A DNA stretch of 64,000 nucleotides from contig NZ_FOMD01000002.1 of NCBI RefSeq assembly GCF_900112525.1, forward strand, positions 558,001 to 622,000, written 5' to 3'. The notes under the pieces were generated by a model that did not search any database, was not told the DNA's origin, and worked only from the letters and a program-made list of their open reading frames with translations. Below are positions 44,888 through 63,013 of the stretch, piece after piece. The position numbers and the translations under genes were made by a program. This DNA comes from Klenkia taihuensis. Its GTDB lineage: Bacteria > Actinomycetota > Actinomycetes > Mycobacteriales > Geodermatophilaceae. Position 1 is the first letter of the stretch. Each line of letters begins with the position of its first letter.

Positions 44888-45349
44888 TCAGGAGGTCAGC
44901 GCGCGGGCGACCCGGCCGATCGGCTCCGGGGCGTCGATGGCGTCCAGCGCCCGCCGCAGGATCGTGCTCGAGGTGTGCATCGTGTAGGGGAAGTAGTGCA
45001 CCCGGACGCCGACCGCGGCGAAGTCGGCCTCGAGCCGGTCGCCCTTCTCGGTGCCGCGCCAGTCGTCGCCCTTGAAGATGACGTCGAAGCCGCCGACCTG
45101 CCGCCAGGTCTCGACCTTGTCCGGGACGACCTCGGCGTGCACCTGGTCCACGAAGCGCAGGGCCCCGACGATCTCCATGCGCTCGGCGAGCGGGATCACC
45201 GGCAGCCGGCCCTTGGTCTGCTCCAGCACCTCGTCGGCGACGACCCCGGCGATGAGGTGGTCGCAGTGCTCGGCCGCGTGGCGCAGCACGTTGAGGTGGC
45301 CGATGTGGAACAGGTCGTAGGCGCCGGGCGCGTACCCGATGACGGGCAA
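44888..45349 (-). CDS. nucleotidyltransferase, glycerol-3-phosphate cytidylyltransferase-like
   Basis: Cytosolic cytidylyltransferase-type enzyme of 153 residues (TagD/GCT class) making a CDP- or ADP-alcohol from a phosphorylated polyol. The nucleotide-binding motif GAYDLFHIGHLNVLRHA (HxGH) is at residues 8-24, and the second family motif is TMHTSSTILRRAL in place of ISTTxIK. The likely start is the TTG at 45349: GGAGG lies 7 nt upstream and the next residues PVIGYAPGAYDLFH match the family N-terminus. The substrate is unproven. A CDP-alcohol phosphotransferase is encoded at 60874, in the same polysaccharide locus. Confidence 0.88.
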   Translation of the reverse strand: MPVIGYAPGAYDLFHIGHLNVLRHAAEHCDHLIAGVVADEVLEQTKGRLPVIPLAERMEIVGALRFVDQVHAEVVPDKVETWRQVGGFDVIFKGDDWRGTEKGDRLEADFAAVGVRVHYFPYTMHTSSTILRRALDAIDAPEPIGRVARALTS

Positions 45350-45399
45350 GGGATCCTCCAGGGCTTCAGGTGGAGCGTGGACAGCGTAGGCGACGACGA

Positions 45400-45412
45400 C
45401 CACTCTGCGTAG
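45400..45412 (-). promoter_or_regulatory. BldD-box-like motif upstream of the cytidylyltransferase
   Basis: Minus strand CTACGCAGAGTGG, 51 nt before the TTG start. The AC-nC-A-Gn-GT core matches the BldD consensus (tnACncWgnGTnA) at all core positions. Three more copies occur in the locus. Confidence 0.55.
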
Positions 45413-45485
45413 TGCTCGGCGGTGGCGCTCGAGAGGTCACCCGGAAGAGTTGCCTGCTCAGAAGACGGGCGCCGTCACGAGACGA

Positions 45486-45498
45486 CCACCGAGAGTGA
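45486..45498 (+). promoter_or_regulatory. BldD-box-like motif upstream of the Wzz-Wzy-GT operon
   Basis: Plus strand CCACCGAGAGTGA, 162 nt before the Wzz-like start. It keeps AC, AG, GT and the final A of the BldD consensus but has G where C is expected at the sixth position. Confidence 0.45.
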
Positions 45499-45659
45499 GC
45501 CGGAGTCTGGCACCATCGACGCGGGCGCGGGGAGTCCTCTCCCCCGAACGGGTGGCCGACTCCTGCTCCAGGGGGTCCACGGACGGCTTCCCGCCGTAGT
45601 TTCCAGAACCGGACGTGGCCGATGGGTCACGGGGAGTCGATCGTCACGGAGGACCGAGG

Positions 45660-47108
45660 GTGGAGCTGCGCGAGTACGCCGCGGTGGTGGGACGGCGCTG
45701 GCGCTGGTTGGCGGCGTGCCTGCTGGCCTGCCTGCTGGTCGCCCTGGCCGCTGCGTTGCTGACCCCGAGGACGTGGACGGCGCAGACGCAGGTCTTCGTC
45801 TCCAGCACCACCGAGAGCACCAGCCCCCAGTTCCTGCAGCAGCGGGTGAAGAGCTACCCCGACATCGCCAGCAGCGCCGAGGTGCTCGACCCGGTCCGCG
45901 ACACCCTGGGCCTGGACATGTCCCTGGCGCAGCTGCGCGCCGCCGTCGGCGCCGAGAACCCGGTCGACACCTCGCAGATCAACATCGCCGTCACCCTGCG
46001 GGACCCGCAGCAGGCCGCCGACGTCGCCGACGCCGTGGCCGAGGAGTTCAGCTCGGCCGTGGAGCGGCTGGAGACCACCGGCTCGGGCAGCAGCCCGGTC
46101 ACCCTCACCGTCACGAACCCGGCGACGGTGCCGTCCGCGCCGACCAGCCCGCAGATCCCCCTGCTGCTGGCCCTGGGCCTGGTGTGCGGGCTCGGTCTCG
46201 GCGTCGCCGCGGCCGTCGTCCGCGACCGCTGGGACACCCGGGTGTGGACGCCGGACGACGTCCGCGCCGCCTGGGGGGCCACCGTGCCGGACGTGCTGTC
46301 CACCCGCGGCCGGCGCGAGCCGACCGACCGCGCCGCCCAGGTGCTGGCCCGCCGCATCGAGCGCCGCGCGCAGGACGGCCCCGTCCGGGTCCTCATCGCC
46401 GCCCCCACCGACCGCGGTGCCGCGGCCGTGGCCGAGCTGACCACCGACCTGACCGACGTGCTGACCCGCCGGGGCCTGGCCGTCGAGGGCGCCGACAAGC
46501 CGGCGCCCTCGACCGAGCCCACCGCGACGGCGGAACCCGTCGGGAAGGACACCGAGGCGACGGCCGACCCCACCCCGGCGGCGCGGCGACCCGACGTCGT
46601 GTTCACCACCGTCCCCTCGGACGCGGCCCTGAGCACCTGGCGCGCCGAGGTCGCCGGCAGCGACGGCGTCGTCGTCGTGTGCCCTCCCGGCTCGGCGGAC
46701 CGGGTCGACGTGTTCGAGCTCGGCCAGTTGCTGGACGGCGTCGAGGCCGTCACCGTCGGCGTCGTCTTCGCCGCGCCGGCCCGCCGTGCCCGCCGCCGCG
46801 CCGTCGAGGCGCCCGCCGCCGCACCGGCCGCGACCCCGACGGCCCCGGCCCGGCCGGCGATCGCCCGGCGCCAGGGCACCGAGGGCGCGGGCTGGGCCCG
46901 GCTCACCTCACCCGCCCCGGCTCCCGCCGCCACGACCGGTGAGGACGAGCCGGTGGCCGAGGCCCGGCCTGCCCGTCCGTCGGGCCGGACCGAGCCCACG
47001 CCGATCCGCAGCAACCGGGTGGCCGGGTCCTCGCGCCGGGTGCCGGCGCTGTCGCGGAGGAGCAGCAACCGCGTCACCGTCCGCATCCCGCCCTCGCAGA
47101 ACTGGTGA
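45660..47108 (+). CDS. Wzz/GumC-type polysaccharide co-polymerase with degenerate BY-kinase-like domain
   Basis: Membrane protein of 482 residues controlling polymer chain length or export. The Wzz part (about 1-200) has LREYAAVVGRRWRWLAACLL leading into helix 1, the external domain with YPDIASSAEVLDPV, and helix 2 PLLLALGLVCGLGLGVAAAV. The cytosolic half (about 205-400) resembles a BY-kinase fold, RVLIAAPTDRGAAAVAELTT at the nucleotide-loop position and DVVFTTVPSD and GVVVVCPPGS later, but lacks the Gly-Lys-Thr/Ser of Walker A and a Tyr cluster. It ends in a basic Pro/Arg tail. GTG 45660 has GGAGGACC upstream. Wzy begins within its stop. Confidence 0.88.
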   Translation: MELREYAAVVGRRWRWLAACLLACLLVALAAALLTPRTWTAQTQVFVSSTTESTSPQFLQQRVKSYPDIASSAEVLDPVRDTLGLDMSLAQLRAAVGAENPVDTSQINIAVTLRDPQQAADVADAVAEEFSSAVERLETTGSGSSPVTLTVTNPATVPSAPTSPQIPLLLALGLVCGLGLGVAAAVVRDRWDTRVWTPDDVRAAWGATVPDVLSTRGRREPTDRAAQVLARRIERRAQDGPVRVLIAAPTDRGAAAVAELTTDLTDVLTRRGLAVEGADKPAPSTEPTATAEPVGKDTEATADPTPAARRPDVVFTTVPSDAALSTWRAEVAGSDGVVVVCPPGSADRVDVFELGQLLDGVEAVTVGVVFAAPARRARRRAVEAPAAAPAATPTAPARPAIARRQGTEGAGWARLTSPAPAPAATTGEDEPVAEARPARPSGRTEPTPIRSNRVAGSSRRVPALSRRSSNRVTVRIPPSQNW

Positions 47109-48349
47109 CCGCGACCCCCGCGCTGCTCGCCCGGCCCCGGGCGGCTGCGCTGCTGCCCGTCCTCCTCGTGGTGGTCGGCAGCGTGGCGTGGCGCCGCGGG
47201 GACGTGTTCTCCGGCGGCGTGGACCCGGTGGTGGCGGCCAAGGCGCTGGTCAGCCTGGTCGCGCTCGCGCTGGCCTTCCGGCTGGACCACCGCTCCACCG
47301 CCGGTCGCCGGGTCGGCACCGGCAGCATGTGGGTCCTCGCCGTCGTCCTGGTCGCCTCCGTGCTCGGCGCCCTCGGCCACGGCACGCTCGTGCCCTCGGC
47401 CGTGGTCGCGGTCCGGGTCGCGATCCTGGCGGTGACCGTGCGGCTGCTGGTCCGCGCCCTCGGGCCGGCCACGATGCTGTCGGCGGTCATCTGGGCCTGC
47501 GGCATCGTGGGCGGGGTCGCCGCGGTGAGCGGTGCCCCGTCCGTGCTGGCCGGGGGACGGCTCTTCGGCGGCGTCCCGCCGCTGAACCCGAACGAGATCG
47601 CGCTGCTCGCCGGCGTCGTCGTCCTCGGCGCGGCCTGGCCCACCATGCTCGGCCGCGGCACCCCCCGGCAGGCGGTCGTCGCGCTGGGCGCGCTGGCCGT
47701 GCTGTGGCTGACCGGCTCGCGCACCTCGCTCGCGGTGCTGCTGCTCGCCCTCGCCGTCGCCGCCGTCCGGCTGAGGCGGCCCCAGGTCGGCCTGGTCGTC
47801 GGGCTGGGCGTCGCGGTCACCCTGGGTGCCCTGGTCATCGCCTCCACGAGCGCGGTCAGCTCCTTCGCCGACCGCACCGACGCCTCGGGCAACAGCACCC
47901 TGGACTCCCGGTTCGTCGCCTGGGGCGCGGCCCTGGGCTTCGCGTCGTCGGCCTGGCAGTGGGCCTTCGGCGCCGGCCTCTCGGTGAAGCTCATCCCGGT
48001 CGCCGGCCAGTGGTGGAACGAGCAGCTGCTCGACAGCAGCTGGGTCTCGGTGTTCGTGCAGGCGGGCGTCGTCGGCGGCCTGGTCGCGCTGGGCTGGGTC
48101 GTCGGCGCGGCCCGCGGGCTGCGCCGGATCCCTGCCGCCCTGTGGCCGGTCGCCGCCGGGCTGCTGTTCTTCGTCGTGCTGCGCAGCGTGCTCGAGAGCG
48201 GGTTGTTCGACGCCACCCCGGCGCTGCTCGTGCTGCTGACCGTCTCCCTCGCCGGGGAGCGCGGCACCGCCGACTCCCCTCCCCCGCAGCTGGGCCGCAC
48301 CCTCGCGCCCGGCGCCCTCGACCGTGGACCGGTGCACCTCCGTGGCTGA
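47105..48349 (+). CDS. O-antigen ligase/Wzy-like polymerase
   Basis: Polytopic protein of 414 residues with about ten to twelve helices. The Wzy_C/O-antigen ligase region includes PPLNPNEIALLAGVVVLGAA, the motif LTGSRTSLAVLLLALAVAA, and the long periplasmic loop with DASGNSTLDSRFVAWGAALG and WWNEQLLDSSWVSVFVQAGV. Likely joins repeat units of the exopolysaccharide outside the membrane. GTG start overlaps the Wzz stop by 4 nt; the following glycosyltransferase starts before its end. Confidence 0.88.
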   Translation: MTATPALLARPRAAALLPVLLVVVGSVAWRRGDVFSGGVDPVVAAKALVSLVALALAFRLDHRSTAGRRVGTGSMWVLAVVLVASVLGALGHGTLVPSAVVAVRVAILAVTVRLLVRALGPATMLSAVIWACGIVGGVAAVSGAPSVLAGGRLFGGVPPLNPNEIALLAGVVVLGAAWPTMLGRGTPRQAVVALGALAVLWLTGSRTSLAVLLLALAVAAVRLRRPQVGLVVGLGVAVTLGALVIASTSAVSSFADRTDASGNSTLDSRFVAWGAALGFASSAWQWAFGAGLSVKLIPVAGQWWNEQLLDSSWVSVFVQAGVVGGLVALGWVVGAARGLRRIPAALWPVAAGLLFFVVLRSVLESGLFDATPALLVLLTVSLAGERGTADSPPPQLGRTLAPGALDRGPVHLRG

Positions 48350-49484
48350 TCGACCTCGCCGGGTGCTCGTCGCCCACCCCTCCTCCGACGTGTACGGCTC
48401 GGACCTCCAGCTCGTGGAGAGCATCCACGGCCTGGTCGCCGCGGGCTGGCAGGTCACCGTGACGCTGCCCGCCGACGGCCCGCTCACCGCGCCGCTGCGC
48501 GGGGCCGGGGCCGAGGTCGCCTGGCTGCCGGTCCCCGTGCTGCGCAAGTCGCTGCTGCGGCCCCGCGGCGCGCTGACCCTGGTGCGCGACACCGCGCGCT
48601 GGCTGGGCCCCGCGCGGCGGCTGCTGCGCACCGTGCGGCCGGACGTCGTCTACGTCAACACCGTGACGGTGCCCAGCTGGCTGGCCCTGGCCGCGGCGCT
48701 GCGGGTCCCCGCCCTGGTGCACGTGCACGAGGCGGAGTCCGACCTGCCCCGGTGGCAGCGCTTCGTGCTCAACGCCCCGCTGCTGCTCGCCCGGCGGGTG
48801 GTGGTCAACAGCAACGCGGCCCGGGACACCCTGCTGGACGCCGTCCGCGGCCTCACCGCGCGCACCCGCGTGGTGCACAACGGCATCGCCGGCCCGCCCA
48901 CCGACCCCGAGCCCGCCACCGGCTCCGACGGGCCCGCGACCCTGGTGCTGGTCGGCCGGCTGTCCCCGCGCAAGGGCAGCGACGTCGCCGTCGAGGCCGC
49001 CGCGCTCCTCCGGGAGCGCGGGGTGGACGTGCGGCTGGAGCTGCACGGCAGCGTGTTCCCCGGCTACGAGTGGTTCGAGGACGAGCTGCGCGAGCGGGCG
49101 TCCCGGCCCGACCTCGCCGGGCACGTGGAGCTGGCCGGCTACACGAACCCCACCTGGCCGGTGCTGGCCCGGGCCGACGTCGTGCTGGTGCCCTCGCGCG
49201 CCGAGCCGTTCGGCAACGTCGCGGTGGAGGGCCAGCTCGCCCAGCGCCCGGTCGTCGCCAGCGCCGTGCAGGGCCTGAAGGAGATCGTGCTGGACGGCGA
49301 GACCGGCCGGTCGGTGCCCCCCGGCGACCCGGTCGCCCTGGCCGACGCGGTGCAGCAGCTGCTCGACGACCGCACCGCCGCCGCGGCGCTGGCCGCGGCG
49401 GCCCGGGACCGGGCGGTGGAGCGCTTCGGCGTCGAGCGCTACCGGCGGGCCCTCGTCGAGCAGGTCGACGAGCTCGCCCGCTGA
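48342..49484 (+). CDS. GT4-family glycosyltransferase
   Basis: Cytosolic GT-B retaining glycosyltransferase of 380 residues. N-terminal Rossmann domain: RVLVAHPSSDVYGSDLQLVE. C-terminal domain: LVLVGRLSPRKGSDVAVEAA and the acid-E7-E signature EPFGNVAVE (about 297-305), typical of GT4. GTG 48342 overlaps the wzy stop by 8 nt; a GTG at 48324 would add six residues. Third gene of the Wzz-Wzy-GT unit. Donor and acceptor sugars unknown. Confidence 0.92.
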   Translation: MADRPRRVLVAHPSSDVYGSDLQLVESIHGLVAAGWQVTVTLPADGPLTAPLRGAGAEVAWLPVPVLRKSLLRPRGALTLVRDTARWLGPARRLLRTVRPDVVYVNTVTVPSWLALAAALRVPALVHVHEAESDLPRWQRFVLNAPLLLARRVVVNSNAARDTLLDAVRGLTARTRVVHNGIAGPPTDPEPATGSDGPATLVLVGRLSPRKGSDVAVEAAALLRERGVDVRLELHGSVFPGYEWFEDELRERASRPDLAGHVELAGYTNPTWPVLARADVVLVPSRAEPFGNVAVEGQLAQRPVVASAVQGLKEIVLDGETGRSVPPGDPVALADAVQQLLDDRTAAAALAAAARDRAVERFGVERYRRALVEQVDELAR

Positions 49485-49488
49485 GCCC

Positions 49489-50745
49489 TCAGGCCCGGCT
49501 GCGCGGCACCAGCACCAGCCACCGGACGGCGGCCGCCGCGGCCACCGGGCCGGCGGCCAGCACCGCGGGCGCCCAGTCGGCCGCCCCTGGGCGGAGCACG
49601 ACGAGCAGCAGGACGCCGACCAGCGCCGCCATCTCGACCGCCCGCCAGCCCAGCACCGCCCGCTGCGCACCGTGCACCGACGCCAGGCCGGCGTAGGGCA
49701 GCAGCAGTGCGCCGGTCACCGCGTAGGCGCCCCAGCCGGCGACCGCGGCGGCGGGCACGGCGTAGTCGCCGGCCGACAGCAGCGGGCCCAGCCACGGGAG
49801 CAGCGCGACGGTGGCCAGCACCACGACCGCGATGCCGGCCGCGGCGGCCAGTGCCGCCCGGTCGGCCCGGCGGAGCAGCTCGGCGGCCGGCCGGTGCCGG
49901 GCGCCGGCGAACCACGGCAGCAGGAACGAGCCCAGGCCGGCGACCAGCACCAGGGTGGGCGAGGTGAGCACCCGGGCGGCCTCGACCGGGCCGTAGGCGG
50001 CCGCGCCGGCGGCACCGATGACCACCAGGCGGAGCAGGGTCAGGGTGGCCGGGCGGACGGTCTGCCCGGCCGCGCGCCACGCCCCGAAGGACAGCACGGT
50101 GCCGACGGCGGCGCCGCGCCACGGGCCGGTGGGCCGCTCCCCGCGGGGCACCAGCACGAGGGCGACCGCGCAGGAGACGAGCTGGCCGACGGCGAGCGCG
50201 AGGAACAGGTCGGTGACCTCCAGCGGCCGGCCGGCCCGCAGCGCGACGAGCACCGCGAGCGCGGCCACCGCGCCGGACAGGTCGACGGCGGGCAGCCGCC
50301 AGTACCGGCCGGTGGCCTGCAGCAGCCGGCGCAGCAGGTCCTCCAGCACGAAGGACAGCGTCGCGACACCGACCCAGACGCCGTCCCACGCCGACCCCCA
50401 GCCGGTGAGGACGGCGAGCAGGCCGCCGGCCAGGGCGGTCCCGGCGGCGGTGCCGAGCGCCAGCCGGTGCAGTGCGGCCCGGACGCCGGGGTCGTGCCGG
50501 TCCAGCACGGTGAGCGAGTCGCCGACCAGGCCGCTGGTGACCGCGGTGGCCAGCACGATCGCCCCGTAGACGACGGAGAAGGCGGCCAGCCCCGCCGCGC
50601 CGAGCTCGCGCGCCGCGGCGACCTGGAGGACCAGCCCGGCCAGCGCCAGGGTGCCCTGGCCGACCAGCGCGCCGACCAGCCGGCCGCGCCCCCTGCGGGC
50701 CCGGGGCGCTGCGGTCGGGGGCGCGGACGTGCTCACGCCACCCAC
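49489..50745 (-). CDS. Wzx/MATE-like polysaccharide flippase (putative)
   Basis: Membrane protein of 418 residues with about twelve helices, convergent with the GT4 gene 4 nt away. Features of the MVF/polysaccharide-flippase group: LVGALVGQGTLALAGLVLQV then AARELGAAGLAAFSVVYGAI, Arg/Gly-rich cytoplasmic loops, and the pair VGTVLSFGAWRAAGQTVRPA and YGPVEAARVLTSPTLVLVAG. Its role would be moving lipid-linked repeat units to the outer leaflet for Wzy. Sequence is Ala/Leu-rich, so family choice rests on topology and context. Confidence 0.82.
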   Translation of the reverse strand: MGGVSTSAPPTAAPRARRGRGRLVGALVGQGTLALAGLVLQVAAARELGAAGLAAFSVVYGAIVLATAVTSGLVGDSLTVLDRHDPGVRAALHRLALGTAAGTALAGGLLAVLTGWGSAWDGVWVGVATLSFVLEDLLRRLLQATGRYWRLPAVDLSGAVAALAVLVALRAGRPLEVTDLFLALAVGQLVSCAVALVLVPRGERPTGPWRGAAVGTVLSFGAWRAAGQTVRPATLTLLRLVVIGAAGAAAYGPVEAARVLTSPTLVLVAGLGSFLLPWFAGARHRPAAELLRRADRAALAAAAGIAVVVLATVALLPWLGPLLSAGDYAVPAAAVAGWGAYAVTGALLLPYAGLASVHGAQRAVLGWRAVEMAALVGVLLLVVLRPGAADWAPAVLAAGPVAAAAAVRWLVLVPRSRA

Positions 50746-50752
50746 CCCAGCA

Positions 50753-50779
50753 CGCCGGTGCCCGCGGGGGGCACCGGCG
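50753..50779 (-). terminator. hairpin after the 1,089-aa surface protein gene
   Basis: Perfect 10-bp stem CGCCGGTGCC / GGCACCGGCG with a 7-nt loop, 19 nt past the minus-strand stop codon, between that gene and the flippase gene. Confidence 0.7.
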
Positions 50780-50797
50780 CGCCCGGGTGGTCGCAGG

Positions 50798-53700
50798 TCA
50801 CGCGCCGGCGGTGACCGTGAGCGGGCCGAACCGGACGACGGTCCCGGCGGTGGAGGACCCGGTCAGGTAGGCCGCGAGACCCACCCCGCCCGGGGCCTGC
50901 AGGGCCGCGGTGTCGTCGGTGCGGCTCAGCGACGGGACGTCGGGCCGGGTGGTCCCCGCCGCCCAGACCGTCCCGGTCACCGTGGTGGTGCCCGACCCGG
51001 CGGAGGAGACGTCCAGGGCGAGGGCCTGGCCGGGCACGTAGCCGGTCGCCACGACGACCTCGCTGCCCACGAGGGCCTCGCTGGCCGTCCCCGACAGACG
51101 GGTCACCGCGGCGCGCACGGTTCCGTCGGTGAGGAAACGCAGGCGCACCCGGTACTCCAGGTTCGCCCCCACCCGGCGCGGGGTGACGTACACCGAGGTG
51201 CCACCGCCGGTGGGCGCGGAGGTCAGCGTGACCGTGGTGGAGAGGTCGGCCGAGGGCGCCGAGACCTCACCCAGGTAGGCCGCGGTCAGGTTGCCCGGCG
51301 CGGTGAGGCCGAAGACCGCGGAGCCGCCGTCCACCGACAGCCGGGAGGTGCCGTTGGCCGCCGTCCAGGCGCCGCCGGTGTCCGCCGTCCCCAGGCCACC
51401 GGTGGTGGTGCGGGCGAAGGCGTCGGCGGCGAGGACCCACACCGCTGGCCGGGTGACCGTGACGTCCCGCGACGTGGTGCCGACGGCGCCCCGGTCGTCG
51501 GTGACGGTCAGCGCGACCCGGTAGGTGCCGGGGGCGGCGTAGGCGTGGCTGACCTGCGCGCCGGTGACGGTGCTGCCGTCGCCGAGGTCCCAGCTCCACG
51601 AGACGACCCGGCCGTCGGCGTCGGCGGAGGCACCGGCGTCGAGGGCGGCGGAGAGGTCCGTGGTGGTCGCGGTGAACGCGGCGGTGGGCGCCTGGTTGGG
51701 CAGCGCGGCGCGGCGGTGCGCGGCGACCTGGTCACCGGTCAGCGCGGTCGGGTAGACCGCGACGGCGTCCACGGAGCCGACCAGGTCGGTCCGGCCCGCG
51801 CCGGGCCAGAAGGTGAGCGGCCCGCCGCCGACCTGCCAGTACCCGTTGTAGCTGCCGGCCGTGGTGATCGCGGCGTTGGCCGCGACCTGGGTGCCGTCGA
51901 CCCACAGCACCATCCCGCCGGAGCCGAGGGTGGCCACCACGTGGTGCCAGGCGCCGTCGTTCAGGCCGGCCGCGCTGGACACGGTGCGGCGGGACCCCGA
52001 CGTCACGCCGAAGTACAGCCGGCCCGAGCCGTCGAGGTAGACCTGCCGGTCGTAGGTCAGGTTCGACCCGCTCGAGGAGTTGCCGAAGCCGGCCAGCCGG
52101 CCACCGGTGGTGGAGGTGGTGGAGAACCACAGCTCGAGGGAGAACGTCGAGGGCGCGGCCTTGGCGCCGGCGGAGGCCCCGGCGACCATCCGCGAGGACG
52201 AGGTGCCGTCCAGCCGGAAGGAGCCGCTGGCGTCGTCGGCGACGGCACCGGTGGTCTGCGACCGGACCGCCGAGGGCACGGTCAGCGGCGCGCGGCCGGT
52301 CGCGTCGGGGCTGGTGCCGCCGGTGACGGTGCCCAGCGGCCAGGCCGAGGTGGCGCCGTCGGCGACCACGCGCTCGGTGTAGGGCGAGGGCAGCGGCTCG
52401 GCGCTGACCGTCCCCGAGGTGGCGGGGCTGGTCACCGCGTTGCCGGTCGCGTCGACGGCGCGCACCACGTAGGAGTGGGTGGAGGACGGCGCCTGCCGGC
52501 GGTCGACCAGGGTGACCGTCTGCGGCTTGAAGAACAGCGAGTCCACCGACTGGCTGGCGACCGGGGTGGCGCCGCCGTCGCGGTAGAGCTCGTAGGTGAG
52601 GAACCGGTCGTCGCGGTCGGACGTGGTGGTCAGCGCGACCGACATCGTGCCGGCTCCCGTGGCGGTGACGGTGGGCGCGGCCAGGCTGTCGGCGGCCGGG
52701 CCGACCTTGTTCGGGGCCAGCGACCGGACGGCGAACCGGACCAGACCCTGCTGGCCGGTGCCGTTCACCCGCGGGAACTCACCGCCGTAGACGACGTACT
52801 GCGAGGTGCCGGTGACGCTCCAGCCGGCCTGGCCCTGGCCGGTGACCGTGCCGGGGGTCAGCTGCGGGTACCAGTCCATGACCGCGGGCGCCGGGGCGCC
52901 GCGGAAGTTGCTGTTCCCCCAGGTGCCGGTGCCGACGGTGCCCGCGACCGCCTGCGACAGGGCGGTGCCGAAGCGGCTGACCCGCGGGGTGACCTCGGGG
53001 AAGCCACCGATGTTGCTGCACACGTGGGCGTGGCTGGCCAGGTAGACCGCGCCGCCCATCGGGAAGGTGGAGTACGTGTCGCCCCGGCAGTCGGCGTCCC
53101 AGACCAGCGCGCCGCCGTTGGCCTGCACGGCGATGACGCCCTCGGCGTTGCCGGGACCGGAGAAGTCGTAGGCCGAGAGCCACACGGTGGTGCCGTCGGT
53201 GGTCAGGCTGGTGACGCCGCTGTCGTCGCCCTGGTTGGTGATGCGCTGCCCGATCGCGAAGGGCCGGACGGCGCCGGTGGCGGCGTCGACCGCGCCCACG
53301 CCGCTGGTGGCGGTGCCGTTGATCGAGCCGAACCGGCCGCCGACCACGACCTGGCCGGCGGTCAGCGCCAGCGAGCTGACGGCGGCGCTGGCGGCGGTGC
53401 TGCCGTCGCGGTTGCGGCCCACGCCGGTCGACGGCGCCCAGGGCAGCAGCTGGCCGGCGGTGGAGAACGCGGCCAGCCGCAGGCGCTCGGCGCTGCCGAC
53501 GGCGTTGAAGTCGCCGCCGACGTAGACGGTGTCCGCGGAGACCGCGATGGCCCGCACCGAGGCGGTCACGGCCGGGGCGAACCCGGGGACCAGCGCGCCG
53601 GTGGCCGGGTCGAGCGCGGCGATGCGGCGGCGGGTCTCGCCGTTGACGGAGGTGAAGTCGCCGCCGACGTAGATGCGGGAACCGTCGGGCGAGGCGGTGA

Positions 53701-54067
53701 TGGTCAGCGCCTGGGCGTTGAGGGTCGGCGCCCAGCCGGGCAGCAGCACGCCGGTGCGGATGTCGTAGGCGAGCAGGTTGCCCCGGGGCACGAGGGCGGT
53801 GCCCGCGGCCGCGCCCGCCGGACGTGCGTTGGCGAAGCGGCCGGCCACGTAGACGGTGTCCCCGACGACCACCTGCGACCACACGACGCCGTCCACCTGC
53901 ACGGTGGGCAGGGCGTCGGCGGAGACGGTGGTGGCCGGGGCGGTGGACCCGGTCGGGGTGGTGCCCTCGGCCTGCGCCGGGGTGCCGGCCACGGTGGCGG
54001 CGAGCAGGCCGGCCAGGGCGGCGACCAGGACCCGGGCCGTGCGGCCGGGGCGGGAGGCTGTGCGCAT
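50798..54067 (-). CDS. giant secreted beta-propeller/LamG/PKD protein, 1,089 aa
   Basis: Cell-surface or extracellular protein. Signal peptide about 1-34 (ending AQA). The N-terminal half (about 45-460) is a beta-propeller-like region with repeated units such as TVYVAGRFA, RIYVGGDFTSVNG and VYVGGDFNAVG and a paired-Cys motif (ADCRGDTY, then HAHVCSNIGG). A fibronectin-III-like module (about 465-560) is followed by one LamG/concanavalin-like domain (about 590-770, STFSLELWFSTTSTTGGR), one PKD domain (about 785-865, WSWDLGDGSTVTG), and a C-terminal domain (about 876-1089) shared with the 1,906-aa paralogue. No membrane anchor or LPxTG. ATG 54067 matches the signal-peptide start. It probably binds surface glycans or matrix. 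Confidence 0.9.
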   Translation of the reverse strand: MRTASRPGRTARVLVAALAGLLAATVAGTPAQAEGTTPTGSTAPATTVSADALPTVQVDGVVWSQVVVGDTVYVAGRFANARPAGAAAGTALVPRGNLLAYDIRTGVLLPGWAPTLNAQALTITASPDGSRIYVGGDFTSVNGETRRRIAALDPATGALVPGFAPAVTASVRAIAVSADTVYVGGDFNAVGSAERLRLAAFSTAGQLLPWAPSTGVGRNRDGSTAASAAVSSLALTAGQVVVGGRFGSINGTATSGVGAVDAATGAVRPFAIGQRITNQGDDSGVTSLTTDGTTVWLSAYDFSGPGNAEGVIAVQANGGALVWDADCRGDTYSTFPMGGAVYLASHAHVCSNIGGFPEVTPRVSRFGTALSQAVAGTVGTGTWGNSNFRGAPAPAVMDWYPQLTPGTVTGQGQAGWSVTGTSQYVVYGGEFPRVNGTGQQGLVRFAVRSLAPNKVGPAADSLAAPTVTATGAGTMSVALTTTSDRDDRFLTYELYRDGGATPVASQSVDSLFFKPQTVTLVDRRQAPSSTHSYVVRAVDATGNAVTSPATSGTVSAEPLPSPYTERVVADGATSAWPLGTVTGGTSPDATGRAPLTVPSAVRSQTTGAVADDASGSFRLDGTSSSRMVAGASAGAKAAPSTFSLELWFSTTSTTGGRLAGFGNSSSGSNLTYDRQVYLDGSGRLYFGVTSGSRRTVSSAAGLNDGAWHHVVATLGSGGMVLWVDGTQVAANAAITTAGSYNGYWQVGGGPLTFWPGAGRTDLVGSVDAVAVYPTALTGDQVAAHRRAALPNQAPTAAFTATTTDLSAALDAGASADADGRVVSWSWDLGDGSTVTGAQVSHAYAAPGTYRVALTVTDDRGAVGTTSRDVTVTRPAVWVLAADAFARTTTGGLGTADTGGAWTAANGTSRLSVDGGSAVFGLTAPGNLTAAYLGEVSAPSADLSTTVTLTSAPTGGGTSVYVTPRRVGANLEYRVRLRFLTDGTVRAAVTRLSGTASEALVGSEVVVATGYVPGQALALDVSSAGSGTTTVTGTVWAAGTTRPDVPSLSRTDDTAALQAPGGVGLAAYLTGSSTAGTVVRFGPLTVTAGA

Positions 54068-54134
54068 CGGGGTCCAACCGTTCACGAGGAGTGCCGGGCC
54101 GGGTGCGGCCCAGGACGAGCGTGCGCCGCGACGG

Positions 54135-54147
54135 TCACTCTCGGTAC
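54135..54147 (-). promoter_or_regulatory. BldD-box-like motif upstream of the 1,089-aa gene
   Basis: Minus strand GTACCGAGAGTGA, 68 nt before the ATG. Matches BldD consensus at AC, AG, GT and final A; sixth position is G rather than C. Confidence 0.45.
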
Positions 54148-54240
54148 TGCCCATCGGGGTGAAGGGTCCCGACCGGGTGACACCGTCGCGGGTGGATCCG
54201 CCGACCGGTCACCCGCCGTGACGGGGCCGGACGGCCGGAC

Positions 54241-54269
54241 GGGCCGCACCGCCGGTGGCGGTGCGGCCC
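54241..54269 (-). terminator. intrinsic terminator after the 1,906-aa surface protein gene
   Basis: Perfect 13-bp stem GGGCCGCACCGCC / GGCGGTGCGGCCC with 3-nt loop, 24 nt downstream of the minus-strand stop. Confidence 0.82.
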
Positions 54270-54293
54270 CTCCGTCCTGCTGTCGTGCTCAGG

Positions 54294-57200
54294 TCACGGC
54301 ACGTCGGTGACCGTCAGGGCACCGAAGCGGGCCACGGTGCCGCTGGTCGCCGACCCGGACAGGTAGGCCGTGAGGCCCACCGAGCCGGCCGCCTGCAGCG
54401 AGGCGGTGGTGTCGGTCCGGCTGATCATCGGGGAGGTCGGGGCGGCGTCGCCGTCGGCCCAGACCGAACCGCTGATCGTGGTCGTGCCCGTGCCGGTGAC
54501 CCGGAGGGACACCTGGAGGACCTGGCCGGCGGTGTAGCGGCCGGGCAGGGTGACCTCGCTGCCCAGCACGGTCTCCGTGGCCGAGCCCGCCAGGCGGGTG
54601 ACCGCCAGGCCGACGGCGCCGTTGGCCTGGTAGCGCAGCCGCAGGCGGTACTCCTGGTTCAGGCCCACCCGGCGGCCGGCGACGTAGACCGTCGTCCCGC
54701 CGCCGGTGACGGCGCCGGACAGGGAGACCGAGGTCCGCACGTCCACCGAGGTGGCCGAGACGCCCTGCAGGTAGGCACCGGTCTGGTTCGTCGGGCTGGT
54801 CATCGCCAGCTGCGCGGTGCCCGGCGTGACCGACAGGCGCGCAGCTCCGTAGGTGGCCACCCAGGTGCCGCCGAGGTCGGCGGTGCCCAGGCCCCCGTTG
54901 ACCGTCCGGCCGAAGGCGTCCGACGCCCGCACGGTCGGCGAGGCCGGGGCCACGGTGACCTCGCGGGTGGTGGAACCGGTGGCCCCGCGGTCGTCGGTCA
55001 CCGTCAGCGTCACGGTGTAGGTGCCCGGTGTCGCGTAGGTGTGCGACGCCTGGGCCCCGGTCGCCGTGCCGCCGTCGCCGAAGGTCCACGCCCAGGAGGC
55101 GACGGTGCCGTCGGGGTCGGAGGACGACCGGCCGTCGACGGCCACCGTCAGGGCGCTGCCCGAGACGGCGATGCCGGCCGACGGTGCCCGGTTCGGCGGG
55201 TCGGTGGCGACGACGTCGCGGGTGGCCGTCGCCGTCGCACCCTGGTCGTCGGTCACCGTCAGGGTCACCGTGTAGGTGCCCGCCGTGGCGTAGGCGTGCG
55301 TCGCCGTCGACCCGGTGGCGGTGGCCCCGTCGCCGAAGGCCCACGACCAGGTGACGACCCGGCCGTCGGGGTCGGTGGAGCTCGAGCCGTCCACGCTGAC
55401 CGTGCGGTCGCTCGTCGTGGCCGCGAGGCCCGCGGTGGGCGCGACGTTGGCCGGCGGGGCCGGTGCCACGACGACCTCGGTGGTCGTGGTGCCGGTCGCG
55501 CCGTCGTCGTCGGTGACGGTCAGCCGCACCGTGTAGGTGCCGCCGGCGGCGTAGGTGTGCTGCGTCTGCGCACCCGTGCCGGTGGAGCCGTCACCGAAGT
55601 CCCAGGCGTAGCCGGCGACGGTGCCGTCGGCGTCCGTCGAGCCCCGGCCGTCGAGGGTGACGACCAGGTCGGCCGTCGCCTTCGTGATCACCGCGGTGGG
55701 CGCCTGGTTCGGCGCCGCCACGACCACCGTCTGCGTCGACGACGCCGTGGCGCCGTCGTCGTCGGTCACCGTCAGCCGGACGGCGTAGCTGCCGTCGGAG
55801 GCGTAGGTGTGCGTGGCGGTCCTGCCCGACTGCTGCGTGCCGTCGCCGAACTCCCACGTCCAGGACGCGATGGTGCCGTCGCCGTCGGTGGAGCCGGAGG
55901 CGTCCACCGCCACCCCGAGCCCGTCCGTGGTCGCCGTGAAGGCGGCCGTGGGGGCGCGGTTCGGCGGCGGGGCCACCGTGGTGACGGTCTGGGTCGACGT
56001 CGAGGTCTGGCCCTTCGAGTCGGACACGGTCAGCGTGACCTCGTGGTCGCCGGCGGTCTCGTACCGGTGCGTGACCGGCGTGCCCGTCGAGCTGCTGCCG
56101 TCGCCGAAGTCCCACGTGTAGCTGGCGATCGGGCCCTCGACGTCGGAGGAGGTGGCGGCGTCGAAGGTGACGTCCATCCCGTCCACGGTCGCGGTGTACC
56201 GGGCCACCGGGGTGGCGTCGGGGCCGAGGCCGGAGGCGGAGAAGTGCGCAGCCACCTCGGTGGCCGGGAGGACCCGGTCGTAGACCGCGACCTCGTCGAT
56301 GGTCGCCTTGACGTAGGGGTCACCGGACCAGCTGTTGTCGCCACCCACCCGCCAGTAGCCGGCGTAGTCCTGCGCACCGGTGTTGGGGTTGGTGCCGACC
56401 AGGTTGCCGTCGACGTAGAGCTTCATGCCGTCGGCGCCCATGGTGGCGGTCACCTGGTGCCACTTGCCGTCGTTGTAGGCGGCGGGGCTGGTGACGGTGT
56501 TCGCCTGGCCGGTCCACGCGCCGAAGGTCAGCTGACCCGACGGCTCGAGGTAGACGTGGCGGTCGTAGCCGCCGCTGCCCCCGGACTGGTTGGTGCCGAA
56601 GCCGATGAGCTTCCCGCCCCGGGTCGTGGTCGTCTGGAACCACAGCTCGGTGGTGAAGGTGAGCGGGTTGTTCACCTGCGTGCGGGAGTACAGCCCGTCG
56701 TCCACGCCGTCGAAGGACACCGCGGTGTTGGCCGAGGTGCCGGTCAGCGGCGGGCCGGCGACCGCGAGGGTCTGGTTGCCGGTGTAGGTGCCCCGGCCCC
56801 CGGCCGGCGCACCGGCGGCGGCCGCGCTCGAGCCGGCGGCGTCGTCCATCCGCCAGAACAGCGTCGGGTTCGAGTCGAAGACGGCGGCGCCGTAGGCGTC
56901 GGCCGGCTTCGTCGGGATCGGCGAGGACTGGCCCGCGGCGGCCCAGTGGGCAGCGACCTGCTGCGGGGTCAGCACCTTGTCGAAGACGGAGAACTCGTCG
57001 ACGAGGCCGTCGAGGGACGCGGTCCCGGCGCCGCCCCAGATGTTGTCGGCACCCACGCGCCAGTAGCCGTCGTAGGCGTCGACGTTGCTGCCCGGGCCGG
57101 AGCCGACGAGCTGGCCGTCGACGTAGAGCGCCATGCCGCTCGCGCCGAATGTGGCCACGACCTGGTGCCAGTCGCCGTCGTTGTAGGCGCGCGGGGTGTC

Positions 57201-60014
57201 GATGACCTGCTCACCGGGGCCCCAGACGCCGAAGCGCAGGCGGCCGTCGCTGAACATGTAGACGAACCGGTCGTAGTTGTTGCTCCACTGGTCCTGGGTG
57301 CTGCCGAACCCGACGATCCGGCCGCCCTGGGTGGAGGTGGTGCTGAACCACGACTCGACCGAGAAGGTGGACGGGTTCTCCGACCTGTTGGCGGCCACGA
57401 CGTAGCCGAAGCGGTTGTCGAGGTCGGCGGCGGTGTTGCCGGTGACCCCGACCAGCGGGACGCCGGCCTGGCCGCGGACCACGTCGCCGCGGTAGGAGCC
57501 GTTGTTGCCGTTGCCGGAGAGGTCGGCGGCGCCGTCCTGCCCGCCGGACTCGCCGAGCCGCCAGAACAGGCTGGGCTCGTCGGCGACGACCGCCGCGCCG
57601 TAGGCGTCGGCCGGGGCCGGCGCCGTGGTCAGCGTGCGGCCGGTGGCCGTGTAGTGGTCACGCACCTGGGCGGTGGTCAGGGCCGTCGGGTAGACCGCTG
57701 CCTGCGCCAGCTGGCCCCGGTACTCCCAGACGTCGGCCCATCCACCGAGGTTGTTCCACCCCAGCTGCCACCAGCCCCGGTAGTCCTGACCGGTGGTCAC
57801 CCGCCGGTCGGTGCCCACCTTGACGCCGTCCACGTAGAGGGTCTGGCCCTCGGGGGACAGCTCGGCGACGACGTGGTGCCACTGGCCGTCGTTGACGGCC
57901 TGGTTGGTGCGCAGCGTCTCGACCCGGCCCGGGTAGACGCCGAACACCAGGCGACCGCTGCCGTCGAGGAAGAGCTGGCGGTCGTAGTTGCTGTTCTGGC
58001 CGGTCGCCGAGTCACCGAACCCGGCCAGCCGGCCGGTCGGCGAGGTGGTGCTGAACCACAGCTCGAGGCTGAAGGTGTTCGGCGCCTGCTGGGCCGCGCC
58101 GGACCCGCCCACGGTGCCGCGTGCACCGGAGGTGCCGTCCGCGGTCAGCGAGGTGGTGGCGGTCGGCGAGCCGTCGGACTGGGTGAGGCCACCGGCGGTG
58201 ACGACGTCGTTCAGGCCCACGTAGTCGTAGCTGGTGGTGCCGGTGACCGACTCCAGCGGCCAGTAGCCGGTGGCGCCGTCGGCGAGCACGCGCTGCGAGT
58301 AGGCCGGCAGGGTCGCCGACGAGGCCCGCACGGTGGCGCTGCCCCGGGTGACGCTGTTGCCGTCGGGGTCGACCACGGTGACGCGGTAGGTGTAGCTGGT
58401 GCCCGCGGTGACGTTGCGGTCGACGAAGCCCAGCGTGGGCCGGCTCCACCAGACCGAGGACGCCGTCGTCTCGAAGACGGGGGTGCTCGGCTTGTCCGAC
58501 CGGAAGACGCGGTAGGTCAGGTTGGCGTTGTCGTTGTCGTAGGCCGAGGTCCAGGTGACGCGGACCGAGCCCGCGGCGACCGAGAGGGCGGTCGGGGTGA
58601 TGCCGGCGTCGGAGACCGGGCCGACCTTCTTCGGGGCGACCGACGGCATGGCGTAGCGCACCAGGCCCTGCTGGCCGGTGCCGCTGGCCCGGGTGAACTC
58701 ACCGCCGTAGAGCAGGTAGTCGCCGGCCGCGGTGACGTCCCAGCCGGCCTGGTAGGCGCCGGTGATCGAGCCGACGTTCACGTCGGGGAACCAGTGCAGC
58801 TCCTGGGGGGCCGGGCGGCCGCCCCACGAGTTGTAGCGGTTGGTGCCCTGCGGGGTCAGGGAGACGGCGGTCGCGTACTTGCTGACCCGCGGGTCCTGCT
58901 CCGGGAAGCCGCCGATGAAGTCGCAGTTGTGCGGGTGGCCGGCCATGTACAGCGCGCCGTTGAACGGGACGCTGGCGTAGGTGTCGCCGAGGCAGCCGTT
59001 GATCCACTGCAGGGTGCCGCCGGCCGCGGTGGCCGCGAAGGAGCCCTCGAGGTTGCCGGGTCCGTAGTAGTCGTAGCCGGTGCCGTAGACGGTGGTGCCG
59101 TCGGTGGACAGGCTGTAGATCGCGGAGTTGATGCCCTGGTTGGTGATCAGGGTGCCCATCTCGAACGGGTTGGTCGCACCGGTGGCCGCGTCGAGGGCGC
59201 CGACGCCGGAGGCCGCCTGGCCGTTGAGCGTGTAGAAGTGGCCCGACACGACGACCTGGCTGCCGCCGTTGGTGATGACCAGCGACTTCACCTCGTTGGA
59301 GGTCTGCGCGTTGCGGGTCGGGTTGTCGGGCAGCCGGTTGCCGTTGGTCGGGCCGACGCCGGGCACCGGGGCCCAGGGCAGCAGCGCGCCGGCCGGGGTG
59401 ACCGCGGCCAGGCGGGAGCGGCTCACGCCGCCGACCGCGCTGACCGTGCCGCCGAAGTACACGGCCGAGCTGGTGGCACCGATGGCCTTCACGACGCCGG
59501 AGACGCTGGGCGCGAAGGAGGTCAGCGCACCGGTCGCGGTGTCGAAGGCCGCGATGCGGTTGCGGGTGGTCGAGCCGACGCGGGTGAACTCACCGCCGAC
59601 GTACAGGGTCCTGCCGTCGGGGCTGGCCGCCAGGCTGTAGGCCTGTGCGTTCAGGTTCGGGTTGAAGGACGGGACCAGGACGCCGGTCTGCAGGTTGTAG
59701 GCCAGCAGGTTGTTCCGCGACACCTCGTTGGTGCCGGCGGCCGCCCCGGCCGGGCGCGCGGTGCTGAACCGGCCGGCGACGTAGACGGTGTTGCCGACCA
59801 CCACCTGGTCCCACACGACACCGTTGACCTGGGTCGTGGGCAGGGCGTCGGCGGTGACGGTCTGCGGCGGGGTGTAGCCGGCGGCGTCGGCGACCGGTGC
59901 CGTGTCGGCGCGCGCCGGGGTCGGTGCCCCGGCCAGGACGCCGATCGACAGGGCCGCGGCCAGCAGGCCGGCAGCGGCGACGCGGAACGCGCCGGGGAGT
60001 GCAGTCGTGCGCAT
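54294..60014 (-). CDS. giant secreted beta-propeller/3xLamG/5xPKD protein, 1,906 aa
   Basis: Largest protein of the window and a paralogue of the 1,089-aa protein. Signal peptide about 1-36 (GVLAGAPTPARA). Beta-propeller-like region about 45-470 with TVYVAGRFS, TLYVGGEFT and the Cys motif HPHNCDFIGG. Fibronectin-III-like module about 480-580. Three LamG-type domains near residues 590-790, 820-1030 and 1060-1260 (each with a TF-x-E-x-WF strand and a DYxG/DAYDGYW-RVG end). Five PKD domains near 1270-1350, 1355-1435, 1440-1520, 1525-1610 and 1612-1690 (cores such as YTWDFGDGSS, WTWEFGDGT, YAWDFGDGS). Shared C-terminal domain about 1695-1906. No anchor seen. Multi-domain adhesin or matrix protein is the best guess. 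ATG 60014 starts the signal peptide. Confidence 0.9.
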   Translation of the reverse strand: MRTTALPGAFRVAAAGLLAAALSIGVLAGAPTPARADTAPVADAAGYTPPQTVTADALPTTQVNGVVWDQVVVGNTVYVAGRFSTARPAGAAAGTNEVSRNNLLAYNLQTGVLVPSFNPNLNAQAYSLAASPDGRTLYVGGEFTRVGSTTRNRIAAFDTATGALTSFAPSVSGVVKAIGATSSAVYFGGTVSAVGGVSRSRLAAVTPAGALLPWAPVPGVGPTNGNRLPDNPTRNAQTSNEVKSLVITNGGSQVVVSGHFYTLNGQAASGVGALDAATGATNPFEMGTLITNQGINSAIYSLSTDGTTVYGTGYDYYGPGNLEGSFAATAAGGTLQWINGCLGDTYASVPFNGALYMAGHPHNCDFIGGFPEQDPRVSKYATAVSLTPQGTNRYNSWGGRPAPQELHWFPDVNVGSITGAYQAGWDVTAAGDYLLYGGEFTRASGTGQQGLVRYAMPSVAPKKVGPVSDAGITPTALSVAAGSVRVTWTSAYDNDNANLTYRVFRSDKPSTPVFETTASSVWWSRPTLGFVDRNVTAGTSYTYRVTVVDPDGNSVTRGSATVRASSATLPAYSQRVLADGATGYWPLESVTGTTSYDYVGLNDVVTAGGLTQSDGSPTATTSLTADGTSGARGTVGGSGAAQQAPNTFSLELWFSTTSPTGRLAGFGDSATGQNSNYDRQLFLDGSGRLVFGVYPGRVETLRTNQAVNDGQWHHVVAELSPEGQTLYVDGVKVGTDRRVTTGQDYRGWWQLGWNNLGGWADVWEYRGQLAQAAVYPTALTTAQVRDHYTATGRTLTTAPAPADAYGAAVVADEPSLFWRLGESGGQDGAADLSGNGNNGSYRGDVVRGQAGVPLVGVTGNTAADLDNRFGYVVAANRSENPSTFSVESWFSTTSTQGGRIVGFGSTQDQWSNNYDRFVYMFSDGRLRFGVWGPGEQVIDTPRAYNDGDWHQVVATFGASGMALYVDGQLVGSGPGSNVDAYDGYWRVGADNIWGGAGTASLDGLVDEFSVFDKVLTPQQVAAHWAAAGQSSPIPTKPADAYGAAVFDSNPTLFWRMDDAAGSSAAAAGAPAGGRGTYTGNQTLAVAGPPLTGTSANTAVSFDGVDDGLYSRTQVNNPLTFTTELWFQTTTTRGGKLIGFGTNQSGGSGGYDRHVYLEPSGQLTFGAWTGQANTVTSPAAYNDGKWHQVTATMGADGMKLYVDGNLVGTNPNTGAQDYAGYWRVGGDNSWSGDPYVKATIDEVAVYDRVLPATEVAAHFSASGLGPDATPVARYTATVDGMDVTFDAATSSDVEGPIASYTWDFGDGSSSTGTPVTHRYETAGDHEVTLTVSDSKGQTSTSTQTVTTVAPPPNRAPTAAFTATTDGLGVAVDASGSTDGDGTIASWTWEFGDGTQQSGRTATHTYASDGSYAVRLTVTDDDGATASSTQTVVVAAPNQAPTAVITKATADLVVTLDGRGSTDADGTVAGYAWDFGDGSTGTGAQTQHTYAAGGTYTVRLTVTDDDGATGTTTTEVVVAPAPPANVAPTAGLAATTSDRTVSVDGSSSTDPDGRVVTWSWAFGDGATATGSTATHAYATAGTYTVTLTVTDDQGATATATRDVVATDPPNRAPSAGIAVSGSALTVAVDGRSSSDPDGTVASWAWTFGDGGTATGAQASHTYATPGTYTVTLTVTDDRGATGSTTREVTVAPASPTVRASDAFGRTVNGGLGTADLGGTWVATYGAARLSVTPGTAQLAMTSPTNQTGAYLQGVSATSVDVRTSVSLSGAVTGGGTTVYVAGRRVGLNQEYRLRLRYQANGAVGLAVTRLAGSATETVLGSEVTLPGRYTAGQVLQVSLRVTGTGTTTISGSVWADGDAAPTSPMISRTDTTASLQAAGSVGLTAYLSGSATSGTVARFGALTVTDVP

Positions 60015-60067
60015 GGGTCTCTCGATCTCGCTGGCCGGCATGCCCCCAGGCGCCCGGCATCGGTTGT

Positions 60068-60080
60068 TCACTCTGCGTGG
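60068..60080 (-). promoter_or_regulatory. BldD-box-like motif upstream of the 1,906-aa gene
   Basis: Minus strand CCACGCAGAGTGA, 54 nt before the ATG. It matches the BldD consensus at all core positions including the final A and is the best of the four copies. Confidence 0.55.
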
Positions 60081-60235
60081 TGTTTGAATCCGGCACCAGA
60101 GGGAATCCGCGCCCGTTCGGGTGAATTCGCTCGTGTCGGAGCGGTTGCGCGCCCGCCCGGTCGCGCTGCGTGACCCCGGGTACCGGTGGTACCGGGTTCG
60201 TGCAGGTCGACCAGGCGTGTCTCAGACCCGGCGGG

Positions 60236-62870: not shown

Positions 62871-63013
62871 CCGTTCTCGTTGCGGGAGTGCTGAGTCTCG
62901 GACCCATCGGCCCAGGTGCAGCCGGTCTGGAGGCGACCGTCACCCGCCCGGGTGGGTCCAGGAGCCGTCCGCGGGCGGCAGGTGACCCGGATCCGGCCCG
63001 GCGGTGTCACCCG

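Follow-up and report, generated by a model that had tools for sequence, protein, structure and literature searches.

Candidate BldD boxes with nearby BldM-type sites upstream of exopolysaccharide and surface-protein genes in Klenkia taihuensis and related Geodermatophilaceae

Introduction

In filamentous actinomycetes, BldD serves as a cyclic di-GMP (c-di-GMP) brake on sporulation, and its box and regulon in Streptomyces were reportedly described by den Hengst in 2010. Here we analysed a 64-kb stretch of DNA from Klenkia taihuensis (hereafter the window), in which an initial annotation had proposed that BldD boxes recur as a regulon ahead of exopolysaccharide and surface genes. Our data support this proposal through the presence of a BldD orthologue, the upstream placement of the sites and their conservation in orthologous promoters.

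The BldD box of Streptomyces is the pseudo-palindrome TNAC(N)5GTNA, and the c-di-GMP signature of the protein is RXD-X8-RXXD (PMC4151990). The system found here resembles this regulon in its candidate boxes, in a conserved BldD carrying the signature and in its many GGDEF proteins. The Streptomyces targets described in PMC4151990 serve sporulation and development in filamentous bacteria, whereas the predicted targets here are polysaccharide and giant surface-protein genes. Klenkia has been described as motile rods (PMC5742155). The predicted target set and promoter layout bear on the question why BldD persists in motile-rod relatives.

At Group I promoters of Streptomyces, such as those of whiB and ssgR, BldM activates and BldD represses, the BldM site being TCACcCgnncGgGTGA (PMC4125116). 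We found candidate sites of this type and a predicted coupling of repression by BldD with activation by BldM at shared genes. What differs from the promoters described in that source are the target genes, the centre-to-centre spacing of about 30 or 42-43 bp and the BldD-BldM-BldD layout. Elsewhere in actinobacteria a c-di-GMP developmental switch has taken on other functions in the case of RsiG-WhiG, described as an anti-sigma switch and not a DNA site, and RsiG has been reported in 16 of 16 Geodermatophilaceae (PMC8325347). Capsule control by RcsB-RcsA in E. coli likewise places a LuxR-type response regulator on polysaccharide genes (PMC4125116), but it has no c-di-GMP repressor and uses other DNA sites. 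A search limited to open-access papers brought up none that deals with BldD acting on polysaccharide genes in Geodermatophilaceae.

Results

We consider it probable (roughly 0.77) that the sites are BldD boxes, usually as part of a two-regulator promoter at which BldD with c-di-GMP would repress and a BldM-type protein would activate. The strongest support for the predicted BldD identity of the boxes, which we regard as decisive, comes from a cross-genus comparison of 80 loci around the cytidylyltransferase gene, 30 from Geodermatophilaceae or close bins and 50 from other organisms. Among the 30 are three metagenome bins, kept for their sequence similarity, that carry the labels Nocardioides, Streptosporangiaceae and Frankiales (L065, L066, L082). 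Within 220 bp upstream of the gene, the BldD consensus TNACNCWGNGTNA occurs perfectly in 13 of the 30 loci (0.03 in shuffles) and with at most one mismatch in 25 (0.72 in shuffles). Both loci of the genus Klenkia lack a perfect box, so that the proportion outside the genus is 13/28. Among the 50 outsider orthologues (Streptomyces, Cellulomonas, Actinotalea, Nakamurella and others) there is no perfect box and only one within one mismatch, and the orthologous Streptomyces promoters differ in having no BldD box. Moreover, consensus-free motif discovery from random starts in the 28 non-Klenkia promoters returned the BldD box, T[CG]AC[GT]C[AT]GnGT[CG]A, as each of its top four solutions, and perfect boxes number 189 in 25 family genomes as against 32 for the control.

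The arrangement of these promoters is regular. A TAnnnT -10-like hexamer follows 14 of 36 boxes by 10-12 nt, at no other offset from 0 to 41 and never in the opposite direction. Two BldD boxes are present in 24 of the 30 promoters, spaced by 72-75 bp in 14 and by 83-86 bp in five; the remaining six, without two boxes of at least 7 bits, were left out of the spacing. The fifth-best discovered motif, TCACCCG[AT][TA]CGGG, is the BldM Group I site. With up to three mismatches it is found in 24 of the 30 promoters (1.57 in shuffles), and the 50 outsiders also show a small excess (6 as against 1.91). Its start lies most often 31 bp upstream of a BldD box. This 31-bp pattern occurs 24 times in 41 family genomes, compared with two for a reversed control, and 27 times, compared with nine, in 28 other genomes of the order.

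The four sites proposed in the initial annotation (45400, 45486, 54135 and 60068) are all present and are the sole matches to their shared motif YACSSAGAGTGR in the window. Their distances to the start codons, 51, 162, 68 and 54 nt, also proved right. A BldD matrix was built from the 28 cytidylyltransferase promoters outside Klenkia and from no others; with it and a BldM matrix, the promoters and genes of the cluster read as follows.

45400..45412, minus strand: candidate BldD-like box before the cytidylyltransferase, CTACGCAGAGTGG; two mismatches to TNACNCWGNGTNA; matrix 8.9, rank 11
45383..45388, minus strand: -10-like TACGCT, 11 nt after the 45400 box, a spacing as in the 14 of 36 boxes of relatives
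44888..45349, minus strand: cytidylyltransferase, 153 aa from TTG (PF01467)
45486..45498, plus strand: candidate BldD box before Wzz-Wzy-glycosyltransferase, CCACCGAGAGTGA; two mismatches; matrix 13.7, rank 2
45511..45516, plus strand: -10-like CACCAT, 12 nt after the 45486 box; invariant in four genomes
45540..45555, plus strand: BldM Group I-like site, TCCCCCGAACGGGTGG; two mismatches; BldM matrix rank 1 in the window
45660..47108, plus strand: Wzz chain-length determinant (PF02706)
47105..48349, plus strand: Wzy/O-antigen-ligase-like polymerase (PF04932, below its cut-off)
48324..49484, plus strand: glycosyltransferase family 4
54135..54147, minus strand: weak BldD-like box before the 1,089-aa protein, GTACCGAGAGTGA; two mismatches; matrix 7.4, rank 18
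54165..54180, no strand assigned: BldM-like site, GGTCCCGACCGGGTGA; BldM matrix 11.1; 42.5 bp centre to centre from 54209
54209..54221, no strand assigned: second candidate BldD box of the 1,089-aa promoter, TCACCCGCCGTGA; matrix 12.6, rank 4; absent from the initial annotation
50798..54067, minus strand: 1,089-aa secreted protein with laminin-G and PKD domains (PF13385, PF18911; scanned from a longer start at 54154)
60068..60080, minus strand: candidate BldD box before the 1,906-aa protein, CCACGCAGAGTGA; one mismatch; matrix 15.8, rank 1
60109..60124, no strand assigned: BldM Group I-like site, GCGCCCGTTCGGGTGA; two mismatches; BldM matrix rank 2; 42.5 bp from 60068 and 50.5 bp from 60161
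60161..60173, no strand assigned: second candidate BldD box of the 1,906-aa promoter, TCGCGCTGCGTGA; matrix 13.4, rank 3; absent from the initial annotation
54294..60014, minus strand: 1,906-aa secreted protein with three laminin-G and five PKD stretches (PF18911, PF13385; scanned from a longer start at 60071)

Besides these two giant secreted proteins with PKD and laminin-G domains, the cluster encodes the cytidylyltransferase, Wzz, the Wzy-like protein, glycosyltransferases, a UDP-sugar dehydrogenase, a CDP-alcohol phosphatidyltransferase and a sugar transferase.

Fewer than one chance match had been predicted for the window; dinucleotide shuffles give a mean of 0.09 for YACSSAGAGTGR. Since YACSSAGAGTGR was derived from these four sites, its count in the whole 4.32-Mb genome is the fairer test: there are five matches, and seven to a reversed control pattern. 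We therefore dropped the motif count as evidence and used position and conservation instead. The number of motifs is not unusual; the signal is their clustering, with four of the five within 14.7 kb. All five fall between genes when the downstream start codons are taken (45349, 45660, 54067 and 60014 in the window). If the longest open frames are used instead, N-terminal extensions would take in 45400, 54135 and 60068; the downstream starts open signal-peptide-like sequence. The fitted motif thus lies upstream of genes and not inside coding sequence. The fifth match is upstream of hemE, named from its translated sequence (L001 1500-1512, G000:C5:254317-254328; L046 10354; L047 9101). It has a matrix score of 12.0 and is kept in the same-genus genomes G003 and G006.

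The fit to the BldD consensus had been stated slightly too generously. None of the four sites fully agrees with TNACNCWGNGTNA: 45400 lacks its last A, and in 45486 and 54135 the second C is replaced by G. The short form TNAC(N)5GTNA is met with one mismatch by 45486, 54135 and 60068 and with two by 45400. Used as a marker, the plain consensus was discarded, as its zero perfect and four one-mismatch copies, compared with 4.18 expected, do not single out the window. With the non-Klenkia matrix, the top four positions of the window are 60068, 45486, 60161 and 54209, all in this cluster. Hence the membership of the proposed set is upheld for 60068 and 45486 but is weak for 45400 and 54135, and the stronger boxes 54209 and 60161 in the same promoters had been missed. 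At 12.5 bits or more, the cluster holds four matches and a 400-kb sample of the same genome two. Across 548 kb of the 30 loci, 33 matches of at least 14 bits fall in the training promoters and nine elsewhere; of these nine, six are intergenic, and among the six, four precede PKD proteins and one a sugar transferase.

BldD boxes and BldM-like sites form four pairs within 130 bp in the window, all in the cluster, compared with one in the 400-kb sample and 0.08 in shuffles. BldD is probably not the sole regulator here, as BldM Group I-like sites lie at set distances from the boxes. For 16 BldD-BldM pairs located elsewhere than in the training promoters, the distances agree with a period of 10.5 bp (R 0.72, 5e-05 versus uniform). 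Restricted to the 11 distinct distances, R falls to 0.59 (p 0.017) and a period of 11.3 bp does slightly better than 10.5, so that helical phasing is suggestive only.

The promoters of the giant PKD proteins took no part in training. Outside the window we could read 15 distinct promoters of PKD-type genes, eight in the genus and seven beyond it; L058, L072 and L079 (promoter cut by the locus end) and L057 (a repeat of L035) were left out. A BldD box of at least 10 bits is present in 13 of the 15, and nine show the BldD-BldM-BldD layout (4/8 in the genus, 5/7 outside). The distances resemble those of the 1,906-aa promoter (50.5 + 42.5 bp), being 51.5 + 42.5 in Geodermatophilus L091, 53.5 + 42.5 and 52.5 + 42.5 in Modestobacter L061 and L077, and 62.5 + 43.5 bp in Blastococcus L059. 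Exceptions are L038 and one gene of L039 with boxes and no BldM site, L035 with one box and one BldM site, and L070 with a different order.

Among relatives, the motif is kept in orthologous promoters, often as a perfect box. In the same genus the sites are retained ahead of the orthologous genes. The nearest named genome is that of Klenkia brasiliensis, whose cytidylyltransferase is 99% identical; the 45400 box is retained there and in G002. The Wzz box (45486) is identical in all four aligned genomes of the genus, and the 54135 box is retained in four of five, including G001, G004 and G005, and changed in G002. At 60068 the core is retained and the end changed in two of four genomes, while the 60161 box (TCAC...GCGA on the minus strand) is retained in four. 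The leader of the 1,906-aa gene (60012-60062, minus strand) is near-invariant in four genomes of the genus, more so than its promoter; no Rfam match was obtained over 41000-64000, so no RNA element was identified in it.

As for the regulators, the genome encodes a BldD orthologue with 67% identity to the Streptomyces protein. It shares 58 of 72 residues of the DNA-binding domain, including the unbroken stretch GRWKAVVVGSYERGDRAVTVQRL, and has the BldD-like C-terminal domain PF21179. Its RHD-YNGKVLSI-RTED agrees with the c-di-GMP signature RXD-X8-RXXD. Of 36 family genomes, 35 gave a BldD match, and the one that did not is 73% complete. Synthesis of c-di-GMP is predicted from 36 GGDEF matches over the cut-off. 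The BldM candidate, a protein of 256 aa, is 67% identical to a BldM query in the part that covers query residues 127-202; 46 of 63 residues of its DNA-binding domain are identical. Its receiver domain is barely above the Pfam cut-off, and orthology to BldM is uncertain. The promoter of bldD itself combines a BldD box with one mismatch and a BldM-like site scoring 16.7 bits. That of the bldM-like gene contains a BldM-like site of 15.0 bits and, 45 bp beyond it, a weak BldD-like box of 10.9 bits. These promoters are reminiscent of Streptomyces, where bldM is a target of BldD repression (PMC4125116). The bldM-like gene (L169 970-1740) is followed by a glycosyltransferase-like gene.

Discussion

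Overall, our data suggest that Klenkia and its relatives have wired a BldD/BldM developmental switch reading c-di-GMP to the cell surface. BldD dimerised by c-di-GMP would bind boxes overlapping or flanking the promoters of the cytidylyltransferase, Wzz-Wzy-glycosyltransferase and giant PKD/laminin-G genes and keep them off. When c-di-GMP drops, BldD would leave, and a BldM-type regulator at the nearby palindrome CCCGNNCGGG would then activate. In many PKD promoters two BldD boxes flank a BldM-type site at near-constant distances, and therefore the two proteins probably either compete or act together on the same face of the DNA. If BldD represses, high c-di-GMP would turn the matrix off, the reverse of the common rule, and developmental and surface circuits would share regulators within one phylum. 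The full proposal, a BldD/BldM circuit at the cell surface of Geodermatophilaceae with inverted c-di-GMP logic and a helically phased BldD-BldM-BldD module conserved across genera, is tentative and in our view falls just short of even odds.

Several observations weigh against BldD boxes in two-regulator promoters. The first T of TNACNCWGNGTNA is missing from all four proposed sites, of which 45400 and 54135 score weakly on the matrix, and none of the seven perfect BldD boxes of the genome is in the window. Shuffles of the window average 2.85 positions of at least 12.5 bits (maximum 9), so that the four in the cluster are not significant by this measure and we relied on the 400-kb comparison of real DNA and on the BldD-BldM pairs. 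The 30 loci, and with them the matrix, share ancestry and are not 30 independent events. The whole-genome scan yielded no strict 31-bp BldM-BldD pair in K. taihuensis, and two of the 15 PKD promoters (L037 and the second gene of L044) lack a BldD box. The receiver part of the 256-aa protein matches BldM poorly, and other proteins score better over the full length. Finally, G037, a genome of the same order, has no BldD match yet ten perfect boxes, with one for the control; two further BldD-less genomes have 14 versus 7 and 12 versus 6. One of the seven perfect boxes (L052 1501-1513, G000:C7:236994-237006) precedes, by 25 nt, a gene for an MscL-like mechanosensitive channel, an assignment made by eye.

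At the palindrome near the boxes, a BldM-WhiI heterodimer or another LuxR-type response regulator, in place of a BldM homodimer, is possible if somewhat doubtful: the half CGGGTGA is kept better than the other half in many copies, and the genome holds 31 matches to BldM, but one protein has the DNA-binding domain that shares 46 of 63 residues with BldM. The BldM matrix is symmetrical by construction and does not decide between homodimer and heterodimer.

It is unlikely that BldD binds the boxes as an activator, with matrix genes switched on at high c-di-GMP in the manner of many Gram-negative bacteria. This would follow the general rule that high c-di-GMP promotes matrix production, at which the initial annotation had hinted, and boxes do occur far upstream, at about -150 from the start codon. 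However, the proximal box takes the place of the -35 element, with the -10-like hexamer 10-12 nt downstream, a typical repressor position, and BldD of Streptomyces is described as repressing its regulon (PMC4151990). The promoter geometry thus suggests repression instead.

A different helix-turn-helix regulator with the same half-site, acting in place of BldD, is more improbable still. Some other protein may use the box in G037, and in Klenkia the half-site AGAGTGA is near-fixed and the other half loose, in a scan that itself demanded AGAGTG. Against this, the motif found de novo, its palindrome and its spacing equal the published BldD box, and the sole further match to Streptomyces BldD in the genome is weak (5.5e-4, 32%). 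Chance matches from side-by-side promoter reading can practically be dismissed, even though the motif shows no genome-wide excess and window shuffles reach similar matrix counts, in view of the conservation at orthologous places in several genera, the de novo recovery and the PKD promoters outside the training set.

Further sites were noticed near other polysaccharide genes. A BldM-like palindrome, TCACCCGCCCGGGTGG, lies at 62940-62955 ahead of the gene for the second glycosyltransferase. K. brasiliensis (L036) also has BldD boxes and BldM-like sites near this gene and near the start of the sugar transferase, a start that is cut off by the window.

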